The position numbers and the translations under genes were made by a program. A stretch of 64,000 bases of DNA from Methylomonas aurea (GTDB lineage Bacteria; Pseudomonadota; Gammaproteobacteria; Methylococcales; Methylomonadaceae): assembly GCF_024505045.1 (NCBI RefSeq), contig NZ_JANIBM010000001.1, positions 186,001 through 250,000 of the forward strand. Direction: 5' to 3'. Position 1 is the stretch's first letter. Every line of letters starts with the position of its first letter. Below the pieces are notes generated by a model. It searched no databases, was not told where the DNA came from, and was given only the letters and a program-made list of their open reading frames with translations. Positions 44,598-64,000 of this stretch are shown here, one piece after another.

Positions 44598-44834
44598 AGT
44601 CGTTTCCTGTTCGGATGGAAGAATTAAACCCGGAATCGGCTTAACCGAATTCTAGGCACTGATCTAATGCGCTAGGAAGTATAGTCGCCGCGGAACATGC
44701 GAGTGGACTCGCCGAAATTCAATCGATATAAGGAATCGGACAATCTGTAGGCCGGAACAAGCCGAACGGTGTTTCCGGAAATTTAATGCCGGTCATGAAC
44801 AGAATACAGTGCGAGAAATGCTACTACTACTAAG
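44598..44834. other. intergenic region before the repeat-bounded segment
   Basis: About 240 bp with no supported gene; presumably holds the promoter of the hydrolase gene (minus strand). Base composition drops to the right, where the solo repeat end begins at 44835. Confidence 0.4.
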
Positions 44835-44847
44835 CTAGACCTGACCC
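44835..44847. repeat. solo end of the CTAGACCTGACCC repeat
   Basis: Thirteen bases identical to the right end of the two 70-bp repeat copies at 45634 and 46843; the rest of the element is missing. Inverted relative to the left end at 45635, so the two 13-mers bracket an ~0.8-kb AT-rich segment. Confidence 0.8.
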
Positions 44848-44848
44848 T

Positions 44849-44965
44849 GTCTTCTGTTGGTTATTGCGCCTTACGGCCTTGTCCGCCAATGTTAAAAAAC
44901 TGATGGCTGACAATCCAGATGCCGACGATGTAGGAAATGATATGGTGTTGAGAATGGCTTCATGA
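44849..44965 (+). pseudogene. 3' remnant of an unknown gene
   Basis: An open frame without a start, directly after the solo repeat end, encodes a C terminus (SANVKKLMADNPDADDVGNDM then VLRMAS stop). Its stop overlaps the next gene's ATG as ATGA, the sign of an operon. The 5' part was evidently lost at the repeat. Family not recognised. Confidence 0.5.
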
Positions 44966-45537: not shown

Positions 45538-45678
45538 ATGAGCATAGCTACAACAGATGACTATATAAAAGCAGCCGAAATTCTATTTAAAACATTTAGC
45601 ACCCCTGGGGATGTTTTTGGCGGTGGCAGAAAGGGGGTCAGGTCTAGAAATATAGCTAAACCTTTCAAGGACGCTTAA
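45538..45678 (+). pseudogene. 5' fragment of a gene truncated by the repeat
   Basis: A good GGAAGGA site and ATG begin a protein (SIATTDDYIKAAEILFKTFS...) that after about 31 codons runs into the 70-bp repeat and stops there (ending RSRNIAKPFKDA). The third gene of the AT-rich group, cut by the element. Original product unknown. Confidence 0.55.
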
Positions 45679-45703
45679 TTGCTAGACCTGACCCTGTTTT
45701 GCT
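45634..45703. repeat. 70-bp inverted-repeat element, copy 1
   Basis: Terminal 13-bp inverted repeats GGGTCAGGTCTAG (45635-45647) and CTAGACCTGACCC (45682-45694) enclose 34 bp. Only two substitutions (45654, 45672) separate it from copy 2 at 46843-46912. Looks like a small non-autonomous mobile element or REP-like unit. No transposase is in the window. Confidence 0.85.
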
Positions 45704-45719
45704 TTCTAATCGGCTCTAA

Positions 45720-45848
45720 CAGGTTGGTGAAAAACCATATTCTAGCCACTAATTCAACAGGAAGAGGCCTTTATTTAGTATCAAAGCCAACCTGGCGACA
45801 CTAAATAAAGGCTCGATTAGTTATAAAAAAGAGTTTTTCACCAACCTG
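45720..45848. repeat. nested perfect palindrome, 129 bp
   Basis: Outer arms of 16 bp (45720-45735 and 45833-45848, CAGGTTGGTGAAAAAC and its complement) and inner arms of 13 bp (45767-45779 and 45800-45812, GCCTTTATTTAGT and its complement) are exact. The inner loop repeats CCAACCTG of the outer right arm. Resembles a miniature inverted-repeat element; it can also fold into a long hairpin RNA. Confidence 0.85.
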
Positions 45849-45980
45849 CTAAGGCCCTGGAACCGCAAATAAGCCAGCATTTGTCAATTACGCCATAGAC
45901 CTATTTCACGATCATCGTCCGATGATAACATTAGCAGCCTATTATTTACTCAACTGATACTATTGGCTGTGGAGCCCCTA

Positions 45981-46637
45981 ATGAAAAGACAAATAGCCTG
46001 CCTTGGCACACTAGTACCGGCTCTACTCGCTAGCGATGCAGAAGCTGCCGTCATGGATTTTAATGGCTTGACAATTTACCCTAGCAACGTTTCTGCCACG
46101 GTAAGCGCCCCTTATATCGAAGATGGTTTCAAACTCAGCACCCTGGCCGGCGTATCCTTCAATATGGGCGGAGGCACCATTTATTCGGTACAGCCTGCCC
46201 ACCCTTACTGGACCGGTACGCCCAGCGTCTATTCTGGCGTGATCAGCGGTTACGGCAGCGCGTTTTCCCTGGAAAAACAGGATGGCGGTGTTTTCGATCT
46301 GATCAGCATAGATGCGGCGGCCTTCCAGAACCATCCTAATGCCTTGGCATTCAATGTCTATGGCTATCCGGCGAGCGGCGGCTCTGTGTACCAAAGCTTT
46401 ACACTGGATACGAGTTTTACGACGCTGCAAACCCTGACCTTTAATACCAGCTTCAAAAACCTGAATAAAATCCTGTTCAGCTCGGTTTACGCTCAAGTCG
46501 ACAATATTAACCTCAGCGTACCATCTACAATCGCGCCTACAACGGTGCCCTTGCCGGCCGCGGCGTGGAGCATGTTGCTTGGCTTGGCTGGGCTAGCCTT
46601 TGGATCGACAAGACGTTACAAATCTCAATCATTCTGA
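45981..46637 (+). CDS. exported protein with VPLPA-CTERM sorting signal
   Basis: 218 aa. N-terminal signal peptide (MKRQIACLGTLVPALLASDAEA), a Gly/Ser/Thr/Tyr-rich beta-type body, and a C terminus VPLPAAAWSMLLGLAGLAFGSTRR: the PEP-CTERM-like VPLPA motif, a transmembrane helix and a basic tail. Such proteins are processed by exosortase and exported to the cell surface, often with exopolysaccharide. No exosortase gene here. Start at 45981 has GGAG; 45963 is less likely. Confidence 0.85.
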   Translation: MKRQIACLGTLVPALLASDAEAAVMDFNGLTIYPSNVSATVSAPYIEDGFKLSTLAGVSFNMGGGTIYSVQPAHPYWTGTPSVYSGVISGYGSAFSLEKQDGGVFDLISIDAAAFQNHPNALAFNVYGYPASGGSVYQSFTLDTSFTTLQTLTFNTSFKNLNKILFSSVYAQVDNINLSVPSTIAPTTVPLPAAAWSMLLGLAGLAFGSTRRYKSQSF

Positions 46638-46680: not shown

Positions 46681-46830
46681 CTACTTAACACTCACCCTCC
46701 CCGCCAAACTATTCCCCTGCACCGCCTCGTTATACATATCAAACCCGTTAGCCGGGGGGATAGACGCACTGCCGGCTCTAGCGACGCGCCAAACTTGATA
46801 CAAGGTCAATTCACCCCCGGCTTGAGCAAG
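46681..46830 (-). pseudogene. diverged duplicate of the alpha-2-macroglobulin 3' end
   Basis: Reading the minus strand gives GGELTLYQVWRVARAGSASI followed by PPANGFDMYNEAVQGNSLAG and a VSVK stop. The intact gene ends GAELKLYQVWKATRPGNASI, PPASGFDMYNEAVRGNGVAG, VSVK. About 48 codons remain; similarity ends where repeat copy 2 starts. A partial copy of the 3' end of the gene at 48067-52962, in the same orientation about 1.4 kb away. Confidence 0.85.
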
Positions 46831-46842
46831 AAAGGAAAGAAA

Positions 46843-46912
46843 GGGGTCAGGTCTAGAAATATGGCTAAACCTTTCAAGGATGCTTAATTGCTAGACCTGA
46901 CCCTGTTTTGCT
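46843..46912. repeat. 70-bp inverted-repeat element, copy 2
   Basis: Same element as copy 1 (two differences in 70 bp), ends at 46844-46856 and 46891-46903. It sits exactly between the alpha-2-macroglobulin fragment and the decayed antitoxin fragment, so it marks a junction. Confidence 0.85.
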
Positions 46913-47056
46913 GCTCGCTTGGCTTTCGATGTATCCAGCGCTGCGGTAATGTCGATATCCTCATCAAATTGCTGTTCAAAATCTTTAGCTTTCAGGTGCG
47001 GGAGCGCCGAACGGAAATTAGTCGTATAGTTTCACTTCGCGGCCGGATCGGGTAAA
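46911..47056 (-). pseudogene. decayed toxin-antitoxin remnants (BrnT-like C terminus and CopG/BrnA-like N terminus)
   Basis: On the minus strand 47018-47056 reads FTRSGREVKLYD stop, like the C terminus of BrnT-type toxins. From 46995 down it reads KAKDFEQQFDEDIDITAALD and TSKAKRAAKQ, like the start of the CopG-type antitoxins that follow such toxins; the expected ATG is CTG here and the frame is cut by repeat copy 2. Assigned from pattern memory only. Confidence 0.5.
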
Positions 47057-47059
47057 CAA

Positions 47060-47296
47060 TCAAAATTCATCACCCGGCATAGGCTCCCGCCTAGGTACTT
47101 TTGCCAAAATTGCCTGAAGAGCCGATGCATCGGCCCGTTCGGCTCTAGCTTGCAGATATTCCTCGGTGGCGATCGCAGAAACCATTTCCGCTACGGCACT
47201 GGCAATGAGTTGATTAATCGATATACCTTCCTTGGTCGCCAGTTCTTTTAGATGACGCTGAATCGAATTGGGCAAAACCAAACTAAATTTTTTCAT
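47060..47296 (-). CDS. ribbon-helix-helix (CopG/HicB-type) small DNA-binding protein
   Basis: 78 aa. MKKFSLVLPNSIQRHLKELATKEGISINQLIASAVAEMVSAI has the beta-strand-helix-helix plan of RHH antitoxins and autoregulators. Its ATG shares an A with the stop of the SIMPL-domain gene (TAATG), so translation is coupled, a partner unusual for an antitoxin. No intact toxin gene is adjacent. The C-terminal tail is charged with Pro. Confidence 0.75.
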   Translation of the reverse strand: MKKFSLVLPNSIQRHLKELATKEGISINQLIASAVAEMVSAIATEEYLQARAERADASALQAILAKVPRREPMPGDEF

Positions 47297-48027
47297 TATC
47301 TATTCGAAAGACGATATATCACGTTGACACTTTTGGATATTTTAATTCTCGAAGGAATATATGTAATCTTAGCTGTATCGCTTTCTTTATGCTGACTTTT
47401 TTTAAACATCGGCGGATTTGGATTAGAAATCCCAAAAAACTCGTTCAAGCTGTGGAAGCCATCTTCCGAAATTGCATATGGATATTCTAATGAAGCATTC
47501 ATACCATTTGCCATATTTTCGGCTTTTCTTTTGGCGTCGGCGCAAGCCTCTTTAATTAATTCAGATTCTACTTGCTTGCGTTCAGCGATATCGAATTTAG
47601 TAGCGATATTGGACAAATTTGAAGTTTTCAAAAGCCAGTCCATAAAGGTAGTGTACTTATCAAGAGCGGGTAATATTATAGTGAATTTTTGGTTTACTTC
47701 GTACCCCAATATCTTAAGTTCTGTGTAATCCTTATCTTCTCGCACAACTGTTTTATCAATATCATAAGCCTCCAAATTATCTTTATCCAAACCTAAGGAA
47801 AAGTAAAAATTAATAATTTCCAAGCTTTGCTTTTTTACAATAGCAAGAGCTTTCTCCGATTTTTCATCAAAAACACTTACGCTAAAGGTTATAGTTGCGA
47901 TGTCTGGAGGAGTTTCTTTTTCTGCAGTACCAGTCGAGAATAAAATCGGAAAATCAGGCCACTGTGTGGCGAATACCGCTGTTGCATTTAAAGTCAACAA
48001 AATGAGCGTCAGTAGCTGCTTTTTCAT
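47296..48027 (-). CDS. exported SIMPL-domain (DUF541) protein
   Basis: 243 aa. Signal peptide (residues 1-21, ending VFA), then FSTGTAEKETPPDIATITFSVSVFDE and a long helical/beta SIMPL region with ACADAKRKAENMANGMNASLEYPYAISEDGF, typical of DUF541. Periplasmic or outer-membrane-associated, function unknown. GC is low relative to the neighbouring alpha-2-macroglobulin gene. Transcribed toward the RHH gene. Confidence 0.82.
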   Translation of the reverse strand: MKKQLLTLILLTLNATAVFATQWPDFPILFSTGTAEKETPPDIATITFSVSVFDEKSEKALAIVKKQSLEIINFYFSLGLDKDNLEAYDIDKTVVREDKDYTELKILGYEVNQKFTIILPALDKYTTFMDWLLKTSNLSNIATKFDIAERKQVESELIKEACADAKRKAENMANGMNASLEYPYAISEDGFHSLNEFFGISNPNPPMFKKSQHKESDTAKITYIPSRIKISKSVNVIYRLSNR

Positions 48028-48066: not shown

Positions 48067-51000
48067 TTATTTGACGCTAACATTGCCAGCCACCCCATTC
48101 CCCCTGACCGCCTCGTTATACATGTCAAACCCGCTGGCCGGCGGGATCGAGGCATTGCCTGGGCGGGTGGCTTTCCAGACTTGGTATAGCTTCAATTCGG
48201 CGCCGGCTTGCAGTTTGGCGACGCGGACGATGCGGTCCGGGTAGCGTTGGGTTTCCTTGATGCCGGCCCAGTAGCTGTCGTCGCCGGCTTGCAATTTGGC
48301 GTCGGCCAGGTAGGTCTGGTCGTTTTCCTGGCCCTCCGCCAGCGACGGGATGCCGTCCTCGATCACGACGAAGTCGCTGCCGGCCGGCAAGCGGTTGGGT
48401 TCGGCGCTGCGTTTGATTTTGACCTCGCTGACCACGACGTCGCCGATGTGCAGCGCCTGACTCAGATCGACCGGTTCGCTGCCGCCGGCGGTAATCCGGC
48501 GGAAATTGCGTTGGATGCTGAGGCCATTGTCGCGGGCGACGACGGCCGGGTACGGCAGTTCGACTTGCAAGGTGGCGGATGCGATATCGGTTTCGCTGAG
48601 ATCGGCGATATGCAGATCGGCCAATTCGCCGACCGCCGGCAATTTGTCGAACCGGCCCAGATAGCCGCCCGGAATGGGTTGCAAGCTGCCCAACGCGGCG
48701 GATGCATTGGCGACTTTCAAGGTCCGGGCTTTTTGGCTTTGCGCGGCGGCGGCTTCCTTGCTCAATAACTCGCGGGTGTTGAAGATGACTTGGGCGGTAT
48801 CGTAAGTCGAAGTCCAGTAGCCGTGTTGCTGGCTCTGCAACAACAGCCGCTTCAGTCTGTTTTCCAATGCCGGCGGCAAGTCGCCCGCGGCCTGCAATGC
48901 GCCTAGCCCGGCGGATATTATGCTGGGCAAGCCGAAGCGGAAGCCGAGCCGGTCGTAGGATGCGCCGGGTTGGCTCTGATAAGCGGCCGGATCGATCGCC
49001 TCCAGCGCCTGCTGCAGGCGTTTGCCCAAGCGCTTGGCCAGATCGGGCTGGCTTTTCATTTGTTGGTTGAAGGCATGCCAGCTTTGGTTTTTGTAGGCCG
49101 CCAAAATGCGCAGCGCCGCAGTCAAGTCTTCGGCACCGGCTTGCGGGTCAGCGCCGACTTTTTCTACGAACTCGGCTTGCCGCTCCCAAGGCGCCTGGTA
49201 GATGTAACCGACCGCCGAATAAGCGGCCAGCGTAAAGCCGTCCAACACTTGCTCGGTATTGGCTTGTTGAGCCAACCACTCCGCGCCTTTGTTGTAGGCC
49301 GAGGTGGTGCCTTCCAGTTTCAGTTCCTCGGCATATTTCAAAGCCTGCATCGCGATCATCGTCACCGGCACGCTGGGGTCCGGATCGTTGGCCCACAACG
49401 CAAAACCGCCGTCGGCTTTCTGATTTTGGATCAATTTACGGATACCCAACGCCGCATTCTGCTTGGCGCGCTGCAAGGGTTTTTCCAGCGGTCCCAGTTG
49501 CTCGGGCTTGAGGCCGGCGCGTTCGATCAAATCCAGCAACACCAGATTCGGCACCGTGCTATGCGCCAGTTGTTCGGTGCAGCCGTAAGGGTATTGCACC
49601 AGCATCGCCGCCGCCTGCAAGGCCGCGCCAAGCAGGCCGGAGTTGACCCGTACCGTCAGTTGCGCGGCTTGGGCCTGCTCCGGAATATCGAAATGCAAAT
49701 GACCGTCGCGGCGTTCGGCGGCATAGACTTGCGCCATCGCCGCCGGCTGAATCGGCAAATCGAATTCCTCGGCACCGCCGACCTTGACCGTGTTCGGCGC
49801 GGTCAACGCCGCTTTTAAGCTGGCATTGCCGGCTTGCGGGCCGGCGGTCAGACGCAGCGGCCATAGTTGCTCGGCTTTGGCGGCCAAGTCGGCGCTCGGC
49901 GTTAGGTTGATATCCTGGCCTTGCAGATTGTCGCTCAAACTCAGATTGCCGGAGACTTTGACCGGATCGGGCCAATGGCTGGTCAATTTGACCGCCAATT
50001 CCACCTCGTCGCCGCTACGTAAAAATTGCGGGCCGACCATATCGACGGCGATGTCGGTTTTGGTGCGGAACTGGCCGGTGGTTTCGCCGAGGCGGCCGTC
50101 CTTATCGCTGGCCACGGCGGTGACCAGCCATTCGGTGACGTTGGCCGGCATATCGACGTCGATCGTCGCTGCGCCGTTGGCGTCGGTGACCACGTGCGGG
50201 AACCAGCCGGCGGTATCGCGCATGGCTTTTTTCGCCAGCTTGCTTTGGCTTTTCAAGGCACTCAGCGCAAAGTTGGGTTTGCGCAGCAAGTCGGCGTAGC
50301 CGTAGCCTTGCAAGTCGTCGGAATAGTAGGTCGACAGATTGCTGCGTTGCAGCGGATAGAAAAAGTCGAAAATGCCGGGGCGGAATTCGGCTTGCACCGC
50401 GTAAACGGCGCGATCGACGATAGCTACCGCCAGCTCGGTATTCGCCGCCGGGCTGCCGTCGGCGCGTTTGACCTGCAATTTGATTTGGGTCGGCTTCAAC
50501 GGTTCGGCTTCGGCTTGAGCCGGCTCGATGGCGATTTGCAGCCGCTTATCCCAGGGCACGATGCGGAAGCCCAGCGTCTGCTCTTTGTACTTGCCGCCGG
50601 CTACCGGCACCGTGACGGTGTGGTAAAAGCCGGTGCCGTATTCGGGTTTGGCAGTCACTTCGAACCAGCGGCTGCGGCCTTGGGCCTGGGCGCTACGGCT
50701 ATCGAACAATTTGGCGCCGGCCACGGTTTCCCAGATCGCCCCGGCTTCATTATTGCCCCAGGCTTTGGGTAGCAAGGCAAATATCTTGGCTTGCTCGCCG
50801 GGACTGAGGATTGTGGTTGGTGTGTACAGCTCCAATTCCGGATTGTCGGCCACCGCCTCGCCGCCGTTACCGGCGACGATCAACGTGGCCGGTTGCGAAG
50901 TAGAACTGTGGCTCATGCTGCGGCCGTCCAGCGTTTCCAAACGCGCCACGGCAGTCAAGCGGCCGAACTCTTTCAACGCCGGTATGTTGAGTTTTTGCTG

Positions 51001-52962
51001 GCCGTTGGCGTCGGTGGCAATATCCAGTTTCACCAAACTGCGCTTGCCGCTGCCGGGTTGCTCCAGCATCACGTCGACCACGCCGCCGGCCTTGGCTGCC
51101 GGTTTGCCGTCGGCGTAACTGGATTGCAGCAAAATCTGCAAATCCTGGTCGCCGACCGCCGCAACGGTTTTGTTAAAACGTAGCGCCGGCTGGGCTTCGG
51201 CCAGCGTGGCGTAAATGCTGTCGGTCAAAATCGCGCTGCCGCCGGCGGCATCCTGCGCCCGGACCATCAGCGTGTAGATCCATTCCTGTTCCGGTTTCGC
51301 CGGCTTGGCGTCGGTTTGGGCTTCGGCGGGCACGGTAAATTCGAAACTGCCGTCGCCGTTGTCGGCCAATTTGGCGGCGGTTTCCCACGGATTGCTGGCT
51401 TCGGCGGCCTGGCGGGCCTCGATCGAACTGAACAGGCGTTGCGGTTGGGTCAACGGTGCGGCGGATTTGACTTGGCCAAAATAATCGTTGCCGGCCGACA
51501 AGCCGGCGCCGGCCTCGTTCACAAATTGCGGCGCCTCGAATTTTTTGCGGTACAAAAATACTTCGAATTTGACGTTCTGCGGGATGCCGCCGCTGTAACG
51601 CTTGGCGCGGAATTTCAGATTGAACGGTTGCCCGGCCTGCACGCTTGGGCTGCGTTCCAGCCATTCCAGGTAAAAGGTCGGTTTGATGTAATCGCGCACC
51701 CGAAATTCGCCGCCGTACGCTTTATGGTCGATCTCGGCCAGCAAGCGGTATAAGCCGGGCGTCTGGCCGGGATCGAGATCGAAGCTGCCGGAAAACGAAG
51801 CGAAATCGGTCAATTGGCTATGGCCTTGCAAGCCGGTGGCGTTGCCGTCGGCGCGGATTAAAGACACGTCGGTTTGCCTGGATTGAAAGGCGGGAATCCG
51901 CAATTGGCCGTCCTGCAAATTGCGGACGATGCCTTTGTAGAAAAAGGTTTCGCCAGGCTTGAAGATCGGCCGGTCGGTCATCACGAATACCGCATCGTCC
52001 TTGGCCTGAGTCGGCAGAAAATCGGTCGCGGTCAACGCAGTGCGCGCTGCTGCGTTAGCGTTGGCGGCCGGCGCGTCGACCCGCACCAGCAGTTTGCCGT
52101 CCAGCACCCCGTCGGGATTGTTGAAGCGCAGTTCGCCGGCGGCATCGGTCGCGCCCGGCAAGTTCTGCCAGCGGCCGCGGCCGTCGCGGACGCTGACTTT
52201 GGCATTGGCTAGCGGTTGCAAATCGCGGTTCATCGCCCGCACCAACAATTGCTCGCTGGATTGCTTGACCTGCACCGCCAGGCTGCTGACTTGAATCAGG
52301 CACTGCGCCTCGGTCTTGCCCTGCACCGCCTGCAACAGATAGAGGCCGTCCGGCAACGGCTCGAGTGCGATCTGCCGAACTTTGTAGCGGTGCTCGCTCC
52401 AGGTGTCCTCGTTAAACCACCAACCCAGATCGTGGGTTTGCTGGCCGTTGCGCAACAGATCCAGATAGGTTTCCTTCACCACTTGAAAGCCCTTGGGCGG
52501 GGCGACCAGGATTTGCTGCGGCACGGCCGCCAACGGCTTGTCGGTCACGGTCAGTACCGAACCGCTGAACGGCGTGTCTTTCAATGACTTGCGAAATTCC
52601 ACATCCAGCATGCCGCGTAGCAATTTCAGCGGCGATTCGGCGTTGTTCAAGCCTTTTGCAAAATAATGGCCGGGATTGAGCTCGCTGACCGGCTGTTCGT
52701 AACTGCGGCTGACGTTGAATTGGCCGTCGAGAAAATTTTCCAGGTTGTCGGCTTTCAATACCCGGATCAACATCGGCTGGTCGGTGACGGTGTAATCCAG
52801 GCGGATGCTGGGCGATTCGCTGTTACTGAAACTGCGTTCGGCGGTCAGGTAGAACGGGCTGCCGGCGACGGCGGCAAACGGTGCGAGCATTAGCGCAAGC
52901 CCAATTGCCACGGCAAAACCCGCTAGCCGGTCGCGCAAAACCGTATTCAGAATTCGGTACAT
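48067..52962 (-). CDS. bacterial alpha-2-macroglobulin family protein with thioester motif
   Basis: 1631 aa. Signal peptide (to ~residue 33, AAVAG), MG-type beta domains, a bait-like region and the thioester site YPYGCTEQL (Cys1128), then a helical thioester-domain toroid with GGFALW and a C-terminal receptor-like domain. Traps proteases covalently in the periplasm, in the manner of E. coli YfhM. No lipobox at the cleavage site, so apparently not a lipoprotein. The usual PbpC partner gene is not adjacent. Start 52962 chosen for the signal peptide. Confidence 0.93.
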   Translation of the reverse strand: MYRILNTVLRDRLAGFAVAIGLALMLAPFAAVAGSPFYLTAERSFSNSESPSIRLDYTVTDQPMLIRVLKADNLENFLDGQFNVSRSYEQPVSELNPGHYFAKGLNNAESPLKLLRGMLDVEFRKSLKDTPFSGSVLTVTDKPLAAVPQQILVAPPKGFQVVKETYLDLLRNGQQTHDLGWWFNEDTWSEHRYKVRQIALEPLPDGLYLLQAVQGKTEAQCLIQVSSLAVQVKQSSEQLLVRAMNRDLQPLANAKVSVRDGRGRWQNLPGATDAAGELRFNNPDGVLDGKLLVRVDAPAANANAAARTALTATDFLPTQAKDDAVFVMTDRPIFKPGETFFYKGIVRNLQDGQLRIPAFQSRQTDVSLIRADGNATGLQGHSQLTDFASFSGSFDLDPGQTPGLYRLLAEIDHKAYGGEFRVRDYIKPTFYLEWLERSPSVQAGQPFNLKFRAKRYSGGIPQNVKFEVFLYRKKFEAPQFVNEAGAGLSAGNDYFGQVKSAAPLTQPQRLFSSIEARQAAEASNPWETAAKLADNGDGSFEFTVPAEAQTDAKPAKPEQEWIYTLMVRAQDAAGGSAILTDSIYATLAEAQPALRFNKTVAAVGDQDLQILLQSSYADGKPAAKAGGVVDVMLEQPGSGKRSLVKLDIATDANGQQKLNIPALKEFGRLTAVARLETLDGRSMSHSSTSQPATLIVAGNGGEAVADNPELELYTPTTILSPGEQAKIFALLPKAWGNNEAGAIWETVAGAKLFDSRSAQAQGRSRWFEVTAKPEYGTGFYHTVTVPVAGGKYKEQTLGFRIVPWDKRLQIAIEPAQAEAEPLKPTQIKLQVKRADGSPAANTELAVAIVDRAVYAVQAEFRPGIFDFFYPLQRSNLSTYYSDDLQGYGYADLLRKPNFALSALKSQSKLAKKAMRDTAGWFPHVVTDANGAATIDVDMPANVTEWLVTAVASDKDGRLGETTGQFRTKTDIAVDMVGPQFLRSGDEVELAVKLTSHWPDPVKVSGNLSLSDNLQGQDINLTPSADLAAKAEQLWPLRLTAGPQAGNASLKAALTAPNTVKVGGAEEFDLPIQPAAMAQVYAAERRDGHLHFDIPEQAQAAQLTVRVNSGLLGAALQAAAMLVQYPYGCTEQLAHSTVPNLVLLDLIERAGLKPEQLGPLEKPLQRAKQNAALGIRKLIQNQKADGGFALWANDPDPSVPVTMIAMQALKYAEELKLEGTTSAYNKGAEWLAQQANTEQVLDGFTLAAYSAVGYIYQAPWERQAEFVEKVGADPQAGAEDLTAALRILAAYKNQSWHAFNQQMKSQPDLAKRLGKRLQQALEAIDPAAYQSQPGASYDRLGFRFGLPSIISAGLGALQAAGDLPPALENRLKRLLLQSQQHGYWTSTYDTAQVIFNTRELLSKEAAAAQSQKARTLKVANASAALGSLQPIPGGYLGRFDKLPAVGELADLHIADLSETDIASATLQVELPYPAVVARDNGLSIQRNFRRITAGGSEPVDLSQALHIGDVVVSEVKIKRSAEPNRLPAGSDFVVIEDGIPSLAEGQENDQTYLADAKLQAGDDSYWAGIKETQRYPDRIVRVAKLQAGAELKLYQVWKATRPGNASIPPASGFDMYNEAVRGNGVAGNVSVK

Positions 52963-53386
52963 ATCAAAGCCCCCCGGCCGACAGTTATCGATGGCCGACC
53001 ATACGAAGCACCGGCTTTTCCGCAGTAGCATAGCCGCTAATCGGAGAAATGAAACGCTTGAGAATCGGCCGTGAGGTTTTGGGCTTGAAGCGCCGCACCG
53101 CTCGCGAGACGCAAAGGTTATTTTTTTCGGCTCCCGCAGGTTGTACGCGCGTTGTTGCGCGGTTCGCGCACCAAAGCCAACTATCGGTCCGGTTTGCCAG
53201 ATGATCCGGGCGCGGGCGATTTAGGAGCCGCACTTTTCCAGTTCGGCGATGGATTTCGGGTTCGAGAGTCGCTGCCCGCGCTATTTCGCCCGAGTAAATT
53301 GAAGTCGACAGGCGAGATTCGGTGCTGACGAAGGCGCGTTCGGCCACTGGTTTTATTGCGGAAATCGCATGTGAGGTAATCCTGAT
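52963..53386. other. intergenic region without a supported gene
   Basis: About 420 bp between the alpha-2-macroglobulin start and rmuC end. Frames on the minus strand (52985-53347, 53181-53390) look Arg/Ser-rich and composition-driven; no ribosome site or family signature. Likely holds the promoter of the alpha-2-macroglobulin gene. Confidence 0.45.
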
Positions 53387-54736
53387 TCATTCGCCGTCAC
53401 CCGCGTCCATTTGCTCGGTCAGGCTCTTGGGCAGTTTCTTTTTGACTTTCACGCCCAGGTCTTCGAGCGCGCCGGCTTGGCGCAACAGATTGCCCTGGCC
53501 GCTGCTGAGTTTGTTGACGATGCTGTCGTAGGTTTTTTGCACGGTGCTGAGTTGGTTGCCGAGTTTTTCGATGTCCTCGACGAAGCCGCGGATTTTGTCG
53601 TACAGCGCGCCGGCCTTGTCGGCGATCAGCCGGGCGTTTTCGTTTTGCTGTTCGTAGCGCCAGATGTTTTGGATCGTGCGCAGGGTTGCCAGCAGCGTGG
53701 TTGGCGTAACGACGACGATTTTGTGTTCGAAGGCGTCGTTGAACAATTTTTCGTCGCCCTGAAACGCGGCCATGAAAGCGGCTTCGATCGGCATGAACAG
53801 CAGCACGAAATCCAGCGAACGCAAGCCCTTCAAGCTGGAATAGTCTTTGCCGCTAAGGCTCTTGATATGAGTGCGCACCGCTTCGACATGTTGTTTCAGG
53901 GCTTCGCTACGTTCGGCGTCGCCTTCGCTGGAGCAGTAGCGCTCGTAGGCGTTCAACGATACTTTGGAATCGATCACCACGTCCTTGTTGTCCGGCAGGC
54001 GGACGATCACGTCAGGTTTGAACAGCCGGTTGTCCTGGTCGCGGAACGCGCTCTGAGTTTCGTATTCGATGCCCTTGCGCAGGCCGGATTGCTCCAGCAC
54101 TTTTTCCAGAATCATCTCGCCCCAATTGCCTTGGGCCTTGTGGTCGCCTTTCAAGGCGCGGGTCAGATTCAACGCTTCCTGGTTCATTTTCTGGGTGTCG
54201 CGGCGCAACGAAACGATTTCCTCGCGCAGGCTGATACGGTCTTTGGTTTCGTTGTCGTAAACGCTTTCCACCCGCTGCTTGAACTCGCCGAGCTGCTGCT
54301 TCAGCGGTGCTACCAGAGTTTCGATGCTGGTCTTGTTATGCTCGACGAACTGCTTGCCGCGTTCCTCGAAGATTCGATGCGCCAGATTTTCGAACTGGGC
54401 TTTCAGTTGATGTTCCGCATCCTGCAGCAAGCGGATTTTCTCTTCGTTGTGTTTGTGTTGTTCCTGCTGGCGGGTATTGAGTTCGGCGTTTTCGGTTTTC
54501 AAAGCCAGCAGTTGTTGCTGCAGCTCTTGCAAATCCGATTCGCGTTGAGCCAACAAGGCCAAGCGTTCCTCGGCCACCGCCAGTTTGACTACCTGTTGCT
54601 GTATCTGCTGTTGCTGCTGCTCGATTTGGCTAAACAAATTCCGCTGCCGTTTGCTTGCTCGCCACGCGCACACCGCGTAACCCGACAACGCCGCCAGCAG
54701 CGACACGGACAACAGCAACCCATTCCCTGTTTCCAT
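53387..54736 (-). CDS. rmuC: DNA recombination protein RmuC
   Basis: 449 aa. N-terminal membrane helix (residues ~7-25), a long Gln/Glu/Leu-rich coiled coil (30-190), then the RmuC nuclease-like domain: NWGEMILEKVLEQSGLRKGIEYE, KPDVIVRLPDNKDVVIDSKVSLNAYERY (Asp-x-Lys core) and VLLFMPIEAAFMAAF. Limits DNA inversions and rearrangements at inverted repeats. ATG at 54736 is preferred over the TTG at 54757. Lies 30 bp after the next gene's end. Confidence 0.93.
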   Translation of the reverse strand: METGNGLLLSVSLLAALSGYAVCAWRASKRQRNLFSQIEQQQQQIQQQVVKLAVAEERLALLAQRESDLQELQQQLLALKTENAELNTRQQEQHKHNEEKIRLLQDAEHQLKAQFENLAHRIFEERGKQFVEHNKTSIETLVAPLKQQLGEFKQRVESVYDNETKDRISLREEIVSLRRDTQKMNQEALNLTRALKGDHKAQGNWGEMILEKVLEQSGLRKGIEYETQSAFRDQDNRLFKPDVIVRLPDNKDVVIDSKVSLNAYERYCSSEGDAERSEALKQHVEAVRTHIKSLSGKDYSSLKGLRSLDFVLLFMPIEAAFMAAFQGDEKLFNDAFEHKIVVVTPTTLLATLRTIQNIWRYEQQNENARLIADKAGALYDKIRGFVEDIEKLGNQLSTVQKTYDSIVNKLSSGQGNLLRQAGALEDLGVKVKKKLPKSLTEQMDAGDGE

Positions 54737-54766
54737 CAACGAGAGTCTCTCAAGCAAATTTGCAAT

Positions 54767-55639
54767 TTATTTCGGTTTGATCGACAAATCGCCAATGGTG
54801 AAACCGATATCGAATCCTTGACCTTTGCCGATCAACACCAACGATATCTCGCCGCGGGTCAACACCTGGCGGTCGATCGAGTCGTTAAGGCCAAAGTGGC
54901 TACCCAACGAAATGTAGTTGCCGTATATTTCGCTGAGGTATTTGACGTCGGTGAAATAGCCTTCGCCTTCGATTTTGGAATAGCCGATGGTAAAACCGAT
55001 GCTTTTCGACGATAGGGAAACCTGTGCCTTTTCGCCGTTGCGGCAGCTTATTTCGCCGCTGCCGTCGTATTGCTTATACGCCAGTGAAAATCCCTCCAGC
55101 TTGTATTTCATGCTGCAAGTACCCAATTTTTTTGTCCTGAACTGCGCCTCCATATCCGCTTGGCTTGGCTGATCTGCCGCCGTCGTATCCGGCGATGGCT
55201 CGGTCGAGGGTTGCGCCGTTTGTGCTGGCGGTGCCTGGTCGAGCGGGTGGGTGATAAATTCGGCGTGGCCGAGTTCCGGAAACGCAACGGCTAGGCAAAC
55301 CAAACCGAGAATTGCAGGCTTAGCGCCCGCTGATAACCCACCACCGACATTAACCCGGCCGCTAAATATCGCCCACCGGCCTGGCGAAGGGGGCATCGTA
55401 TCCGGCTTAGACGGACGCTGTTCGAATGGAATACCTGTAGTAACGAGGGTCGGGTCGATAGTTCCACCGGGGAGGTTCGGCCTGAGTTTGCCCGAGCCCG
55501 GTGCGGCCAGTTCTGGATTTGCAGGGTTTAGGGTCGGATTAACTGTTTGGTAACCGCAGATTGGCGCTAGCCCGGTACGACGCTTGATTTTAAGCGAAGC
55601 GAAAAAGCGGCTTACGCCCTGATTTTGCAGTATGTCCAT
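54767..55639 (-). CDS. conserved hypothetical protein with internal signal-like helix
   Basis: 290 aa from the ATG at 55639. The first ~85 residues are Pro/Asn/Gly-rich and unstructured; a hydrophobic segment AILGLVCLAVAFPELGHA lies near residues ~107-124; then a globular C-terminal domain (LGTCSMKYKLEGFSLAYKQYDGSGEISCRNG, SIGFTIGYSKIEGEGYFTDVKYLSEIYGNYI, FDIGFTIGDLSI) of a kind seen in other gammaproteobacterial hypotheticals. An ATG at 55396 would make the hydrophobic part a normal signal peptide and may be the real start. Function unknown. Confidence 0.6.
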   Translation of the reverse strand: MDILQNQGVSRFFASLKIKRRTGLAPICGYQTVNPTLNPANPELAAPGSGKLRPNLPGGTIDPTLVTTGIPFEQRPSKPDTMPPSPGRWAIFSGRVNVGGGLSAGAKPAILGLVCLAVAFPELGHAEFITHPLDQAPPAQTAQPSTEPSPDTTAADQPSQADMEAQFRTKKLGTCSMKYKLEGFSLAYKQYDGSGEISCRNGEKAQVSLSSKSIGFTIGYSKIEGEGYFTDVKYLSEIYGNYISLGSHFGLNDSIDRQVLTRGEISLVLIGKGQGFDIGFTIGDLSIKPK

Positions 55640-55807
55640 CGTTACGCTCTGATCGGATTGGAAAGATAAATACCGGCAGCTGTCGCTAAACTGCGAACGC
55701 AACTGAAGTCACATGTTCAGTTGGTTCCTAATTTTCCAGATTACTTTACTCGAAAGAACGTAAAAAAGTTACACCGGGCGAGAATCCGCTATGCCTCCAT
55801 GCCCGAG

Positions 55808-55868
55808 ACCCCGCATGCGGTAATCGGGGTATAAGCGGCGATCGACTGCTCGATTGCAGTCGATCGCC
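55808..55868. repeat. two hairpins after the pectinacetylesterase gene, one a perfect 13-bp stem
   Basis: GGCGATCGACTGC at 55837-55849 and its complement at 55856-55868 with a 6-nt loop; beside it ACCCCG/CGGGGT at 55808-55813 and 55825-55830. They lie ~46 bp after the esterase stop and could end its transcript, though no T-run follows. Confidence 0.65.
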
Positions 55869-55914
55869 AATGCAGGTTGAGGCCGAATCGGCTAGAAAAT
55901 TGATCGGGCGGCCA

Positions 55915-57171
55915 TTAAGGGGTGCCGAAGCTTCTGGCCAAACAAGCCAATACACCTGCCTGAGTCAAATTCTGCTCGCCGCAATCCACACCGGGCGTGC
56001 AACTCAGATTTTGCCAATCGGCAGTATCGTTGGTGACTATCGCCTTGGCCCAATCCACGAAGCGAATGCCGTTCAGGGCCGATGTATAAAACTCGTCGAA
56101 CCGGAATATCGTATGGTTGCAACCCGGATCGATGTAAGCCCGGTAGTTTTTCGGCAAGGCAGCTTTTAAACCGCCGGCAATTGTGTTCATTCTAAAACTC
56201 CAGCTCCCGAAACCGGAGACTTGGTCGGCGGGGATGCCGTCGTTTTGCTCCATGATGTTCAAGAACAATTTTTGAACTACATCATAAGCCGTGGTGTATT
56301 GAGCAAATCGTTCCTTGGGATATTGCGCTGCCAGGGTTCTGTAGGCTCTCGGCAGGAAATCGGCGGCCGGAGCGGCCGGCAAGGTTTTGAATATCGGATG
56401 CAGGTTGGTATTGATGTTCCAACCCGAGCCGGGGCCGAATACGCCGAAAGCCAAAAAGCCGTCGGTAATCACTCCCATGCCGCCATCGCTCAGCAACGAA
56501 ACTTTGGCGTCCTTGCCCAACATTTTTTGGACCCAGGGATAGTTCAACGCGGCGCCGTAGGAGCCGGCACTGGAACCGGCGACCAAAATCTTATTGATGT
56601 CTACGCCGCCGGCGTTCAACGGACTGAATTTGTTTTTCCGCTCGCGTTTGAAGTAATCCACCACGTAAAGAAAGTTGTCGAAGCCGCGGTGTTTAATGGC
56701 TACGGTATCGGTCGGATCGGGATTAAACGGATTTTGGTAAACCGTATCCTTGGAACCTAGGAATACGTCGCCGGTGCAATAGGATACGAAAACCATGGTC
56801 CAATTTTTGTACGGATTATCCGGATCTTCGGCGTCCAGCAAACCGGCCATTTGATTCGGATCATTCGCAACATCGGCCGACGGCACATAGCTGGCCTGTT
56901 GGCCCGGCACGATTTTGCATGTCTGATAATTCCAGCAAGCGCCGCCGCCATTTAAGTACAGCAAAACTTTGTCGGCCTTACCCGGCTTTACGTAAAAGGA
57001 ATAGGGCTGGCCGAATGCGCAACTTGGCGCCACCAGTTTCTGCGTATCGCCGACTTTTACCGGATATTGGCCCGGAGTCACCTCGACTTTTTGCCAGACA
57101 TCGGCAGCCTGCGCGCCAGCGGCAAAGCCCAACGCAACGGCAAGTGCCGCATTTAATAGAAATGGCTTCAT
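55915..57171 (-). CDS. exported pectinacetylesterase/Notum-family hydrolase
   Basis: 418 aa. Signal peptide (residues 1-22, AQA), LLYLNGGGACWNYQTC (oxyanion Gly run), LVAGSSAGSYGAALNYPWV (nucleophile Ser in SSAG), an Asp segment near ALPKNYRAYIDPGCNHTIFRFDEF (with the catalytic His). Shares the fold of plant pectin acetylesterases and animal Notum; bacterial members are carboxylesterases of unknown substrate. Several Cys suggest disulfides. Single gene. Confidence 0.85.
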   Translation of the reverse strand: MKPFLLNAALAVALGFAAGAQAADVWQKVEVTPGQYPVKVGDTQKLVAPSCAFGQPYSFYVKPGKADKVLLYLNGGGACWNYQTCKIVPGQQASYVPSADVANDPNQMAGLLDAEDPDNPYKNWTMVFVSYCTGDVFLGSKDTVYQNPFNPDPTDTVAIKHRGFDNFLYVVDYFKRERKNKFSPLNAGGVDINKILVAGSSAGSYGAALNYPWVQKMLGKDAKVSLLSDGGMGVITDGFLAFGVFGPGSGWNINTNLHPIFKTLPAAPAADFLPRAYRTLAAQYPKERFAQYTTAYDVVQKLFLNIMEQNDGIPADQVSGFGSWSFRMNTIAGGLKAALPKNYRAYIDPGCNHTIFRFDEFYTSALNGIRFVDWAKAIVTNDTADWQNLSCTPGVDCGEQNLTQAGVLACLARSFGTP

Positions 57172-57553
57172 GGTTTCTTCCTTTGTCGTTATGGATTTGA
57201 ACGGAAATTCGCCTTTCAGCGGATTTGGCTGCAGGCTAAGTGTAGTTCGCTCTGCCGTAAATTAAGGATTGGGACCGAAACCAAGCGATTTTCGCTGCCG
57301 GCATCGCTCAGGTTTAATCGAAAGGCGCTGTGACTATTTCGCTCAGCCTGCCGCCGCAACGACGCTCGCCAATAAATGTGCAATATTGGTGCAAATCAGC
57401 CGCCGGAATTGGTTCAAGTAAACCTATTCGGCTGCAACAAAACCAGACAGGTCAACTGGAGGCCTTGATTTTTCAAAGCCTTGCCGACGAAATCAATTTT
57501 GGCGCATTTCTGGCTTAGTCGCAGTGGATTTGTCCCGATTACTTGGATGCCCA
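57172..57553. other. intergenic region between divergent genes, nothing recognised
   Basis: About 380 bp, probably holding both promoters. Short frames (for example 57330-57518) show no signature. Confidence 0.4.
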
Positions 57554-58258
57554 ATGGAAATATCGAAACGCCGTCACTGCGAATTAACCGTTCTGGCCGC
57601 ACTTGCCATGACCACGACTTTGCTATTTTGGCTTACCAATCTGGACCGTTGGGCGGCCGGCTTATTTTTCTATCCGGGCAATGCCGGCGGCGTCTGGCCC
57701 AAACAGGACTGGTGGCTGTGGCGAGTGCTTTACGATTACGCGTTTCCATTTACGGTCACGGCCGGCGCGTTTGCCCTGCTGGCTTACCTATTGAGCCATC
57801 TGCACGACGACTTCCGCAGTTTTCGTCGCCAGGCCATGTACATCTTGCTGGTCATCGCGATAGGTCCCGGACTGGTCGTCAATCTGATCGTCAAAGACCA
57901 TTGGGGTCGGCCGCGGCCGATACATACCAAGGAATTCGGCGGAGAGTACGATTACGTGCCGCCGGCAAAATTGGGCCATAGCCCGGATAAGTCGTTCGTG
58001 TGCGGGCATTGCTCGGTCGGATACGCATTTTTTGCCCTGTATTTTTTGGCGCAAAACTACAAAACGCTGTATTTGGTTCTCACGTTGGGCCTGGCGTGGA
58101 CCATGGGTTTTACCCGGATGACCGCCGGAGGCCATTACGCCTCCGACATTCTTTGGTCGGGGTATCTGGTATTTTTGGTGGCTTATGCTTTGTATTACGG
58201 TTGGTATCTGCGCGACGAACCGGTAACGGTACTCGAACAGAACACCGCCACCGGATAA
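57554..58258 (+). CDS. PAP2-family membrane phosphatase
   Basis: 234 aa with about five to six membrane helices. The PAP2 signature is split as KDHWGRPRP (residues ~117-125), CGHCSVGY (Cys replacing the usual Ser in the S-G-H motif) and RMTAGGHYASD. Likely dephosphorylates lipid or undecaprenyl phosphates, or lipid A (LpxE/LpxF-like) in the periplasm. ATG at 57554 is chosen; a GTG at 57524 would add ten residues. Confidence 0.88.
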   Translation: MEISKRRHCELTVLAALAMTTTLLFWLTNLDRWAAGLFFYPGNAGGVWPKQDWWLWRVLYDYAFPFTVTAGAFALLAYLLSHLHDDFRSFRRQAMYILLVIAIGPGLVVNLIVKDHWGRPRPIHTKEFGGEYDYVPPAKLGHSPDKSFVCGHCSVGYAFFALYFLAQNYKTLYLVLTLGLAWTMGFTRMTAGGHYASDILWSGYLVFLVAYALYYGWYLRDEPVTVLEQNTATG

Positions 58259-58307
58259 ACTATCTGGTCAAGCGGACATCGCATCCAGCGGTAATCGCAC
58301 CGCCGGC

Positions 58308-59687
58308 TCAACATTCGATCAGGTTAACCGCCAAACCGCCGCGCGAAGTTTCCTTATATTTGGTTTTCATATCGGCGCCGGTTTCGCGCATGGTCTTGAT
58401 AACCTTGTCCAGCGAAACGAAGTGTTTGCCGTCGCCGCGCAGCGCAATCCGCGCCGCGTTGATGGCTTTGACCGAACCCATCGCGTTGCGCTCGATACAA
58501 GGCACTTGCACCAAACCGCCGACCGGATCGCAAGTCAAACCCAGATTATGTTCCATGCCGATCTCGGCCGCATTTTCGACTTGCTCCGGAGTCCCGCCCA
58601 ATACCTCGGCCAAGGCGCCGGCCGCCATCGAACAGGCCACGCCGATTTCTCCCTGGCATCCCACTTCCGCGCCGGACAGCGAAGCGTTTTCTTTGTATAA
58701 AATCGCGATAGCCGCCGCAGTCAGTAAAAAGCGGATCACGCCGTCTTCGTTGGCACCGTCGCAATATTTCCAGTAGTAATGCAGTACGGCCGGAATAATG
58801 CCGGCCGCACCGTTGGTCGGCGCGGTTACTACGCGGCCGCCGGCGGCGTTTTCTTCGCTGACCGCCAGCGCAAACAAATTCACCCATTCCATCGTGCCGA
58901 CCGGCATGCTCGGAGTTTGCCGCGGAATTTCGCCGGTCAGTTGCCGATAGAGGTTGGCGGCGCGACGCCTGACTTTCATGCCGCCGGGTAGAATACCTTC
59001 TTCACGTAAGCCGCGTTCGACACAAGCTTGCATCACCTGCCAGATCTCCAGCAACCGCTCGCGGATCTGAGATTCGTTGAGCCAGGCTTTCTCGTTGCTC
59101 ATCATCAAATCGCTGATCGACTTGCGGTGAGTCGCGCACAGTTTCAGCAAGCCATCGCCGGTGTTGAACGGATAAGGCAAACAGGTGTCGTCGTTGCTCA
59201 GGCGGTCTATCGCCGCTTCCGGCCCGGTCACGACGAAGCCGCCGCCGACCGAATAATAATCGGCCTGCACCAATTCGGCGCCGGATGCATCGAACACGAT
59301 CAGCCGCATGCCGTTGGAATGGTAGGGCAACACTTTACGTTGAAACAGCAAGTCGGACTTTTCGTTGAACGCCACCGGATAGCAGCCCAGCAGCCGTACC
59401 GAACCGGTTTCTCGAATCTGCGCCAACCGCTGCGGTATCGAATCCGGATCGACCGCGTCCGGCGCTTCGCCTTCCAAACCCAACATCACCGCCTTGTCGG
59501 TACCGTGGCCTTTACCGGTAGCGCCCAGAGATCCGTAAAGTTCGACCTGAATCCGGCGGACTTCGGAGATTAGGCCTTGCTGTTCCAATTTCCGGGCAAA
59601 GGCCATTGCGGCCCGCATCGGCCCTACCGTATGCGAGCTGGAAGGGCCAATACCGATTTTAAATATATCGAAAACGCTAATTGCCAT
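58308..59687 (-). CDS. sdaA: L-serine ammonia-lyase (iron-sulfur, single chain)
   Basis: 459 aa. Beta domain with [25 protein letters not shown] at the start; catalytic alpha domain with [23 protein letters not shown] and [18 protein letters not shown], where the Cys residues bind the [4Fe-4S] cluster. Deaminates serine to pyruvate. Start at 59687 matches the family start. Separate transcription unit, pointing away from the origin. Confidence 0.95.
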
Positions 59688-59848
59688 GGTTAACGCCTGG
59701 GTTGAATAGTGCGGAATTTTGGGAAAACTGCTGCTAAGACAATCCGACAGTAAAAAGCTTCCCCAACCGGCGTAAAACCAAGCAATCATCGTACCGCGCA
59801 AAGCGGACGAGAAATCGTAACGCCAAAGCCGGCAAGGTTTATCCTGGA

Positions 59849-60589
59849 TTAAAGTTTCGACTTGGCAAACAGTGCGGCACCGACGATGCCGGCCTGGTTT
59901 AAAAATGCGGCCGGTTTTACCGGCGTGTTTAACGCGAGTTGGTCCTGGAATTTGTCGAATTTTTTGCTGGCACCGCCGCCGAGGATGATCAAGTCGGGCC
60001 AGAACAATCTTTCCATCGTCGTTAAATAAGTATTGAAGCGCTTACCCCAGGTCTTCCAGCCCAAATCCTCGATCTTGCGCGCCGCATCGGATGCATAACG
60101 TTCGGCTTTGATGCCGTTCTCCAAAAAGATATGGCCCAACTCGGTATTGGGCAATAACTTACCGTCGGTGAACAACGCGGTCCCCAGACCGGTACCCACC
60201 GTAACCAGCAACACCACGCCGGATTGATCCAAGCCGTGGCCGAAACGCATTTCGGCAATGCCGGCTGCATCGGCGTCGTTGACGTTGAAACAGGCACAGG
60301 TTGTCGCTTCCGAAAACAATTTATCGATATCGGTTTGGATAAACGCCTTGGAAATGTTGGAGGCCGTCAAGGCGACGCCGTGTTGCACCGCGGCCGGAAA
60401 CCCGCAGCCTACCGGCCCGTTCCAGTGAAAATGCACCACCAATTGTGCCAACACCGCTGCTACCGCTTCCGGAGTTGCCGGTTGCGGTGTGTCGATGCGA
60501 TGCCGTTCCGACACCAATTCTCCGGATTCGGTATCGACTATCGCACCTTTGATCCCGGATCCGCCAATATCCACGCCAAGTACCAGCAT
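59849..60589 (-). CDS. ppgK: polyphosphate glucokinase-like ROK kinase
   Basis: 246 aa. ROK fold: [16 protein letters not shown] (phosphate-binding loop), [28 protein letters not shown] (catalytic Asp), [12 protein letters not shown], and the PpgK-type segment [27 protein letters not shown] followed by [12 protein letters not shown]. Phosphorylates glucose with polyphosphate or ATP. Immediately left of the oriC-like region, an uncommon neighbour for the origin. Confidence 0.88.
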
Positions 60590-60731
60590 AAGTTCTCCTT
60601 GAAAAAATGAGCCGCTACCATTTTAGGCCAATCGGCCGGCTTACAACGGGTTTATCGGCTCGAGATCCAAATCCGGCTTATCGGACTTACAAACAGTGTT
60701 GATAAGCTTGTCGGCAAAATTCGTTATATCT

Positions 60732-60740
60732 TGTGGATAA
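60732..60740 (-). promoter_or_regulatory. DnaA box 1
   Basis: TGTGGATAA, exact complement of TTATCCACA. Confidence 0.8.
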
Positions 60741-60766
60741 CATCCGGATAAAACCCGCCTGAGGCG

Positions 60767-60775
60767 TTATCCACA
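60767..60775 (+). promoter_or_regulatory. DnaA box 2
   Basis: Perfect TTATCCACA, facing box 1 at 26 bp distance. Confidence 0.8.
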
Positions 60776-60855
60776 ATATTGCAACAGGCATCTATGCGAA
60801 GGATGTACAGAGTTATTGTTAATACATCGCTATGAAAATTATTATAAAAAACGAT

Positions 60856-60864
60856 TTATCCACA
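60856..60864 (+). promoter_or_regulatory. DnaA box 3
   Basis: Perfect TTATCCACA within the AT-rich tract. Confidence 0.8.
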
Positions 60865-61339
60865 AATGTTTGGCGCATAGTAGTAATAACAAAAATAAAA
60901 GATTTAATAAGCTATTTATGATTGGTTGCTAGGATCGGCGGGGCAAGCCGACCTCGAAGCGGCGGAAATTTGCAATCGCGCATCAAAGCCGGCAAGAACG
61001 CGCTACAAATCGAACCAGTCGTGGGCCAATCCAAGCAAACAACAAATTCTCTGGTGAGCCAGGCAATCGGCAAACCACTTTTCCGATGAGAGACCTGCCT
61101 GTTTCCTCCATAATAGGGAGAGAGAACTTGTTGAAAAGAATGTTGGATAATGTCGGCAAAAGATGTGGACAACTTGTAGCCTTGTTTGCCATTGCCGGTT
61201 TTCCACAAATCCTCAACAAGCACGGCGATGGTTAGCGTACAGAATCGATATGCAGAAAAGCTATTGATTTTTAAATGGAAATACTATTTTTCCACAGGTT
61301 TTGCTTCGATAGTAATAACAATAGAGAAAAGATATTGAT

Positions 61340-62443: not shown

Positions 62444-62456
62444 ACCGCTTCTCGGG

Positions 62457-63530: not shown

Positions 63531-63546
63531 TGTTTCACGTGGAACG
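63531..63546. promoter_or_regulatory. parS-like site 2, recF-gyrB intergenic
   Basis: TGTTTCACGTGGAACG starts right after the recF stop. One base (last) differs from the TGTTYCACGTGRAACA pattern; the core is a palindrome. Two such sites 38 bp apart beside oriC are very suggestive of the ParB loading zone. Confidence 0.8.
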
Positions 63547-63644
63547 AACAATAAAAACTATAATCCTCCATCACCAACGCATGATCTGTTGAATGCACTA
63601 GCAAACGACAAACCACCTTGCGGTACAACACACTGGATACCCTC

Positions 63645-64000
63645 ATGAGTGAACAATACGACAGTTCGAATATCACAGTACTGAAAGGTCTGGACGCGGT
63701 CAGAAAACGTCCGGGCATGTATATCGGTGATACCGATGACGGTTCGGGTTTACATCACATGGTATTCGAGGTCGTCGATAACTCGATAGACGAGGCATTG
63801 GCCGGATATTGTAAAGGGGTCGATGTCGTGATCCACGAAAACGGTTCGGTATCGGTGTCCGACGACGGCCGCGGTATCCCGGTCGACATACACAAGGAAG
63901 AGGGCCGCTCCGCTGCTGAAGTGATCATGACCGTACTACATGCCGGCGGAAAATTCGACGACAACGCCTACAAAGTCTCCGGCGGTTTGCACGGCGTCGG
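63645..64000 (+). CDS. gyrB: DNA gyrase subunit B GyrB, partial (5' end only)
   Basis: About 118 codons before the window ends. GHKL ATPase start: [35 protein letters not shown] (magnesium-binding Asn) and DDGRGIPVD, then the SGGLHGVG ATP lid. Introduces negative supercoils with GyrA. The rest lies past position 64000. Confidence 0.96.

Follow-up and report, generated by a model that had tools for sequence, protein, structure and literature searches.

A truncated alpha-2-macroglobulin tail of foreign affinity beside a palindromic repeat in Methylomonas aurea

The intact alpha-2-macroglobulin (A2M) gene of Methylomonas aurea is followed, on the same strand, by a short second copy of its last codons, and the question raised by this locus is whether that copy was made from its neighbour or came from another genome. 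The window analysed is a stretch of 64,000 nucleotides, and its relevant features are listed in Table 1. G000 is the genome studied, other G numbers denote other genomes, and A2M stands throughout for the bacterial alpha-2-macroglobulin.

Table 1. Features around the A2M remnant, in the order in which they stand behind the intact gene (positions are those of the window)
Feature	Position	Strand	Remarks
Intact bacterial A2M gene	48067..53031	-	1654 aa; Pfam domains over cut-offs
SIMPL (DUF541) gene	47296..48027	-	directly behind A2M; E 2.9e-25
RHH/HicB-like small protein	47060..47296	-	HicB E 2.7e-4, just above cut-off
BrnA-like antitoxin piece	46912..46995	-	28 codons open; runs up to the repeat from the side away from the remnant
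Palindromic repeat, copy 1	46840..46912		73 nt; separated by 15 bases from the remnant's cut end
A2M 3' remnant	46681..46824	-	last 47 codons and stop; 5' end truncated
Hairpin directly after the remnant's stop codon	46656..46680	-	-18.1 kcal/mol, z -3.8
224-aa protein gene	45963..46637	+	faces the remnant inside the repeat-bounded segment
~145-bp element	45712..45856		33-nt terminal inverted repeats (79% complementary)
Palindromic repeat, copy 2	45631..45703		96% identity to copy 1; closes the remnant-bearing segment at its far end
Half copy of the palindromic repeat	44834..44853		near 44858, where similarity to G020 resumes

The remnant reads QAGGELTLYQVWRVARAGSASIPPANGFDMYNEAVQGNSLAGRVSVK-stop in a single frame, and its alignment with the 3' end of the intact gene is ungapped, with 71.5% identity in DNA (144 nt) and 74% identity in protein (47 residues). 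The local alignment between the two copies scores 126, compared to 38 for the best of 2000 codon shuffles, and the A2M homology of the remnant is clear at the DNA level. The first-pass annotation had described nearly the same C-terminal ~45 residues on the minus strand, cut off by a repeat copy, and both observations hold: homology stops at the upstream limit of the remnant and the palindromic repeat begins after 15 further bases. The codon-by-codon alignment that it had proposed gives 18 synonymous and 12 replacement codon differences between copies whose starts are 1386 nt apart. At E <= 0.001 the remnant is the sole second A2M match in the whole genome, besides the one full gene. Against the Pfam bMG10 model it covers positions 100-129 of 131 with 15.4 bits, under the cut-off of 26.2. 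Deprived of the remainder of its gene, it is most likely without function. Since it lies inside a contig of 415,780 bases (the draft genome comprises 93 contigs) and over one quarter of its positions are mismatched to the intact gene, an assembly duplication of the intact gene, raised initially as a possible refutation, is excluded.

The intact gene displays MG2 (48.8 bits), bait-region (30.7), A2M (45.7), thioester TED (28.7) and bMG10 (30.9) domains, all above cut-off, together with a bMG3 match under its cut-off. To place it among its relatives, we used gyrB as a reference. In the gyrB tree, G000 groups with G020 and G116, then with G002, then with G005 and G174, and G006, G152, G024, G011, G023 and G012 form a separate clade (G016, whose sole gyrB-family match was under the cut-off, and G227, G229, G230, G231 and G232 have no row in this tree). 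We also built separate trees for the 5' and 3' parts of the intact A2M genes, omitting G010, in which A2M is split over two contigs. Both place G000 with G020, G116 and G002 (support 100), so that intact A2M and gyrB agree on the nearest relatives of G000. In these trees G229 and G230 stand alongside G006, G152, G024, G011 and others. Consistently, the intact G000 gene is 95-96% identical in DNA to those of G020 and G116 and 87-88% identical to that of G002. The intact gene has thus descended with its clade.

The remnant shows another affinity. Its DNA is 93.1% identical to the A2M tail of G229, 92.4% to that of G230, 91.0% to that of G024 and 90.3% to those of G152 and G006, followed by G011 (87.5%), G017 and G012 (both 86.1%). 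Identity to the tails of its own clade is far lower, with 71.5% for G000 and 70.1% for G020, G116 and G002. The comparison with the G229 tail reveals 8 synonymous and only 2 replacement codon differences. In free trees of the tail, the remnant falls with G229, G230, G024, G152 and G006, with a UFBoot value of 96 in a first tree omitting G004 and G010, and of 97 in a second one omitting G010. The affinity of these 144 bases to a foreign A2M type, that of other genomes, is well supported; the exact donor is not, with tree supports of 23-48 near the remnant. A seeming local duplicate can therefore be told apart as a foreign scrap by comparison with relatives. We also considered whether the remnant had converted the intact tail; this was rejected, as the intact tail clusters with its own clade.

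Topology tests were performed with all 3' columns, G010 being again omitted; the remnant fills 144 of these columns and the signal for its placement is confined to them. Placing the remnant with G000 was rejected in two runs (AU 1.3e-35 and 2.9e-63), as was placing it inside the G000, G020, G116 and G002 group (AU 7.5e-5 and 1.5e-6). Positions just outside the ten nearest genomes (AU 0.22 and 0.24) or just outside nine of those ten (AU 0.20 and 0.21) were not rejected. A position outside these ten genomes plus G232, G009 and G016, that is outside all 13 genomes with the foreign type, which corresponds to an ancient vertical paralogue, was rejected by the AU test (0.002) but passed the more cautious SH test on all columns (p-SH 0.10). 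When the 144 columns were used alone, the candidate trees likewise ranked against the resident clade (AU < 0.001). These last tests are weak and carry little weight, since each of the seven candidate trees, the best 3'-part tree included, is itself rejected against the free tail tree, so that none of the trees compared fits well. Of the initial proposal of a duplication or a lost second A2M gene, one half survives: the remnant is a relic of a second A2M, and the AU tests reject a duplicate of the neighbour.

More generally, the genus harbors two well-separated versions of the A2M 3' part. The genes of G000 and G006 are 84% identical in the 5' part and 68% in the 3' part, and those of G006 and G009 84% and 78%, respectively, sections of the 3' half falling in identity between this second pair also. 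The greater divergence of the 3' part between G000 and G006 may result from an old exchange or from faster evolution. In addition, the tree of the last 144 A2M columns conflicts with that of the whole 3' part. This may reflect exchange at the end of the gene, or simply too few sites.

We looked for second A2M copies in relatives by protein and by DNA. The A2M protein search covered 25 genomes of the genus including G000, among which 14 carry a gene of the G000 type, 4 gave distant matches only and 7 none; in five further genomes of the genus, three have one gene of this type. Two full A2M genes of the G000 type were seen in none of these 25 and 5 genomes, and the second full gene that the first-pass annotation had suggested looking for in relatives was therefore not encountered in this search. 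G016 possesses an extra, distant A2M-like frame (25% identity). A search of 37 genomes of the genus with the remnant DNA revealed a second A2M tail in G000 only and in none of the 36 others, among the matches listed, with up to 13 candidates scored per genome. As a separate observation, G152 carries a 283-nt fragment from the interior of A2M, with 90% identity to the gene of the same genome (L199, G152:C73:52151-52432), ~5.5 kb upstream of the G152 A2M gene, which itself shows one in-frame TAG.

The slot behind A2M was then compared. SIMPL stands directly behind A2M in G002, where its reading frame is split, and in G023, and RHH is found in this slot in G020, G116 and G009; no second A2M tail was detected in any of these five genomes, among the matches listed. 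Since SIMPL and RHH follow A2M without a listed second tail, the idea that the two genes were inserted between tandem A2M copies is neither needed nor supported. Compared with G020 and G116, G000 loses similarity in the final 19 bases of A2M and regains it inside RHH, and the difference between SIMPL and PIN therefore starts at the very end of A2M. Indeed, the gene preceding RHH in G020 and G116 encodes a PIN domain, whereas in G000 RHH stands behind SIMPL, and for this reason the G000 RHH may be an antitoxin without its toxin.

Downstream gene content varies widely, the first 1 kb behind A2M being common to 14 of 253 genome pairs (23 genomes). A stretch upstream of A2M is shared by 26 of 120 pairs (16 genomes). 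With a matched set of 17 genomes, 13 of 136 pairs share the 1 kb downstream of A2M, versus 12 of 136 for the gyrB control. As the slot behind gyrB is equally variable, a special hot spot behind A2M is not claimed and this candidate was dropped. A recent exchange of cargo was likewise rejected: the gene of 337 or 331 aa found behind A2M in G024 and G116 is just 62% identical in protein.

The palindromic repeat marks the boundary of the remnant. It is predicted to fold at -31 kcal/mol (z -5.1) and is flanked by two truncated genes, with the cut BrnA-like piece on one side and the cut A2M remnant on the other. Alignment of the 28-codon piece to a BrnA-family antitoxin model spans model positions 2-31 of 70 and scores 29.7 bits (E 5.3e-7), short of the 60-bit cut-off; in Pfam the piece has no match. 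The same repeat is also located behind RHH in G020 and G116, and immediately past it the gene content of G000, G020 and G116 differs three ways. Further copies are carried by the G000 contigs C37 and C25. A half motif of the repeat occurs twice just upstream of the Y1 transposase frame in L235, one of five genomic Y1 matches. The repeat is thus a palindromic unit with a motif adjoining a Y1 (RAYT) transposase gene in the same genome, as is characteristic of the REP type. REPs are usually high in copy number; in this respect our repeat is unlike them, with a handful of copies among the matches listed for G000. The likeness to the REP elements and REPINs which PMC3116915 links to Y1 (RAYT) transposases lies in the ~73-85 nt palindrome with strong hairpin potential and in the half motifs just upstream of a Y1 gene.

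On the other side of the remnant, remnant DNA matches extend into the hairpin in G011, G152 and G227. The facing 224-aa protein resembles PEP-CTERM proteins by sub-cut-off matches only. DNA matches to its gene were found in 6 of the 36 other genomes of the genus (G006, G009, G023, G152, G228 and G229), situated megabases from A2M in G009 and G229 and on contigs other than that of A2M in G006, G023 and G152; G228 has a match to this gene but none to the A2M tail. At the protein level, a search gave 8 loci (48-56% identity), whose records bear titles such as Thiobacillus and Rhodoferax. None of the genomes searched combines the 224-aa gene with an adjoining A2M tail, the arrangement expected of a donor. 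Similar copies of the 145-bp element exist elsewhere in the genus and in the Methylomonas plasmid records NZ_CP014361.1 (88%) and NZ_CP023670.1 (70%). Carriage of the locus by a plasmid was rejected as an explanation: this element alone matched, in those 2 records.

Taking the affinity of the tail together with its position, we consider it rather probable that the remnant is a dead xenologous A2M leftover of a DNA exchange, joined at a transposase-type palindromic repeat. Donor DNA from another member of the genus, with an A2M tail akin to those of G229, G230, G024, G152 and G006, would have brought the final 144 bases of its A2M gene, with the hairpin that follows them. This DNA would have arrived in the variable stretch behind the resident A2M, with joining presumably at the palindromic repeat. 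This could have occurred through one homologous and one illegitimate joint, one repeat serving as the homologous anchor and the illegitimate joint lying at the other end, or through the transposase of the repeat. The facing 224-aa gene may have arrived together with the A2M tail. The remnant would then record DNA exchange between species at a repeat flanked by two truncated genes. It is a real but ordinary trace of genome flux.

Other origins have to be weighed against this exchange. That the two tails are close neighbours, on the same strand and in the same reading frame, is what a duplication of the resident gene would produce, or a tandem pair into which SIMPL and RHH were inserted; yet this origin is rejected by the AU tests, and five relatives carry SIMPL or RHH behind A2M with the second tail absent among the matches listed, which leaves it hardly credible. 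If instead the genus had possessed ancient tandem paralogues that were differentially lost, with the remnant as the last piece of a copy lost in this lineage, the two well-separated A2M 3' versions would be expected, and the SH test on all columns does not reject such a tree. The AU test on the same columns does, and none of the genomes searched with the protein shows two full genes of the G000 type, so that we judge ancient paralogy very improbable. An artefact of assembly or contamination at a short repeat could be suspected from the draft state of the genome and from the joint beside a 73-nt repeat with copies elsewhere in the genome. However, the joint is internal to its large contig, contamination is estimated at 0.14%, and in G116, whose genome is a single contig, gene content also changes right after the repeat. 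The assembly is unlikely to be wrongly joined at the repeat, and an artefact as a whole appears highly improbable.

Displacement, as proposed for rhs tips and T6SS effectors, requires closer comparison. Here an older A2M 3' end of foreign type would have been pushed downstream: the recipient would for a time have had a foreign-type 3' end with its own downstream gene, until an incoming clade-type A2M end with SIMPL and RHH recombined within A2M and was joined illegitimately behind. Jackson et al. (2009; PMC2935791) describe displaced rhs C-terminal tips and propose recombination with circular intermediates. In both cases a large intact gene is followed by a truncated 3' end of its kind, with unrelated small genes next to it. 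In contrast to rhs, neither a toxin tip nor an immunity pair is seen at our locus; the tail holds just 47 ordinary residues of a C terminus, and it is this tail that is foreign, the attached A2M following its clade. Kirchberger et al. (2017; PMC5361080) propose that T6SS effector ends, with orphan immunity genes, are displaced by illegitimate joining next to one homologous anchor. One homologous anchor and one illegitimate joint could yield the anatomy of the remnant, and the architecture is like that of displaced effector ends in their model, although an immunity function is not evident here and one-sided recombination in A2M is a proposal only. Displacement also agrees with the steeper drop in identity from the 5' to the 3' part of A2M between G000 and G006 than between G006 and G009, with the end of similarity to G020 and G116 in the last 19 A2M bases, where the downstream genes change too, and with the separate tree of the tail columns. 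On the other hand, the attached A2M clusters with its clade in both halves and its type is common to G002, G020 and G116, because of which displacement needs two exchanges. A displaced tail is moreover expected to be of the former resident type, which the remnant is not. We therefore give displacement a low, though appreciable, probability.

A broader proposal, which we find distinctly doubtful, is that the A2M locus of the genus serves for exchange as rhs does, its 5' part constant and its 3' part variable, the remnant being the orphan tail of a swap. In such a locus, 3' ends and small genes (SIMPL, PIN-RHH and others) would be swapped between species, with the palindromic repeat as downstream anchor of the swaps. 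The separate history of the last 144 A2M columns would fit such swapping. Were this the case, A2M would be another of the large secreted proteins that trade 3' ends and downstream genes between strains. A comparable case is provided by the VARTIG modules of Thermococcales, in which, according to PMC8416519, an archaeal Ig-domain gene has a C terminus made hypervariable by recombination. There too the small genes behind a large gene of secreted type vary, and there are signs that species have exchanged them; unlike in VARTIG, intact A2M within the G000 clade shares the descent of that clade. In a partial survey of the literature on bacterial A2M, horizontal transfer, Methylomonas and A2M pseudogenes, no paper title dealt with this locus.

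Several minor observations concern the surroundings. The interval 53059-53376 of the window is a rearrangement point, the G020 and G116 counterpart of 53376-64000 being located elsewhere and inverted relative to A2M. On G000 contig C37 (L240, 9632-12331), two more copies of the palindromic repeat are placed 2.6 kb apart, together with a 28-base part copy, amid small reading frames. In G020 (L242, contig C11, 3548-5526), part copies of the repeat flank a short RHS-repeat reading frame.
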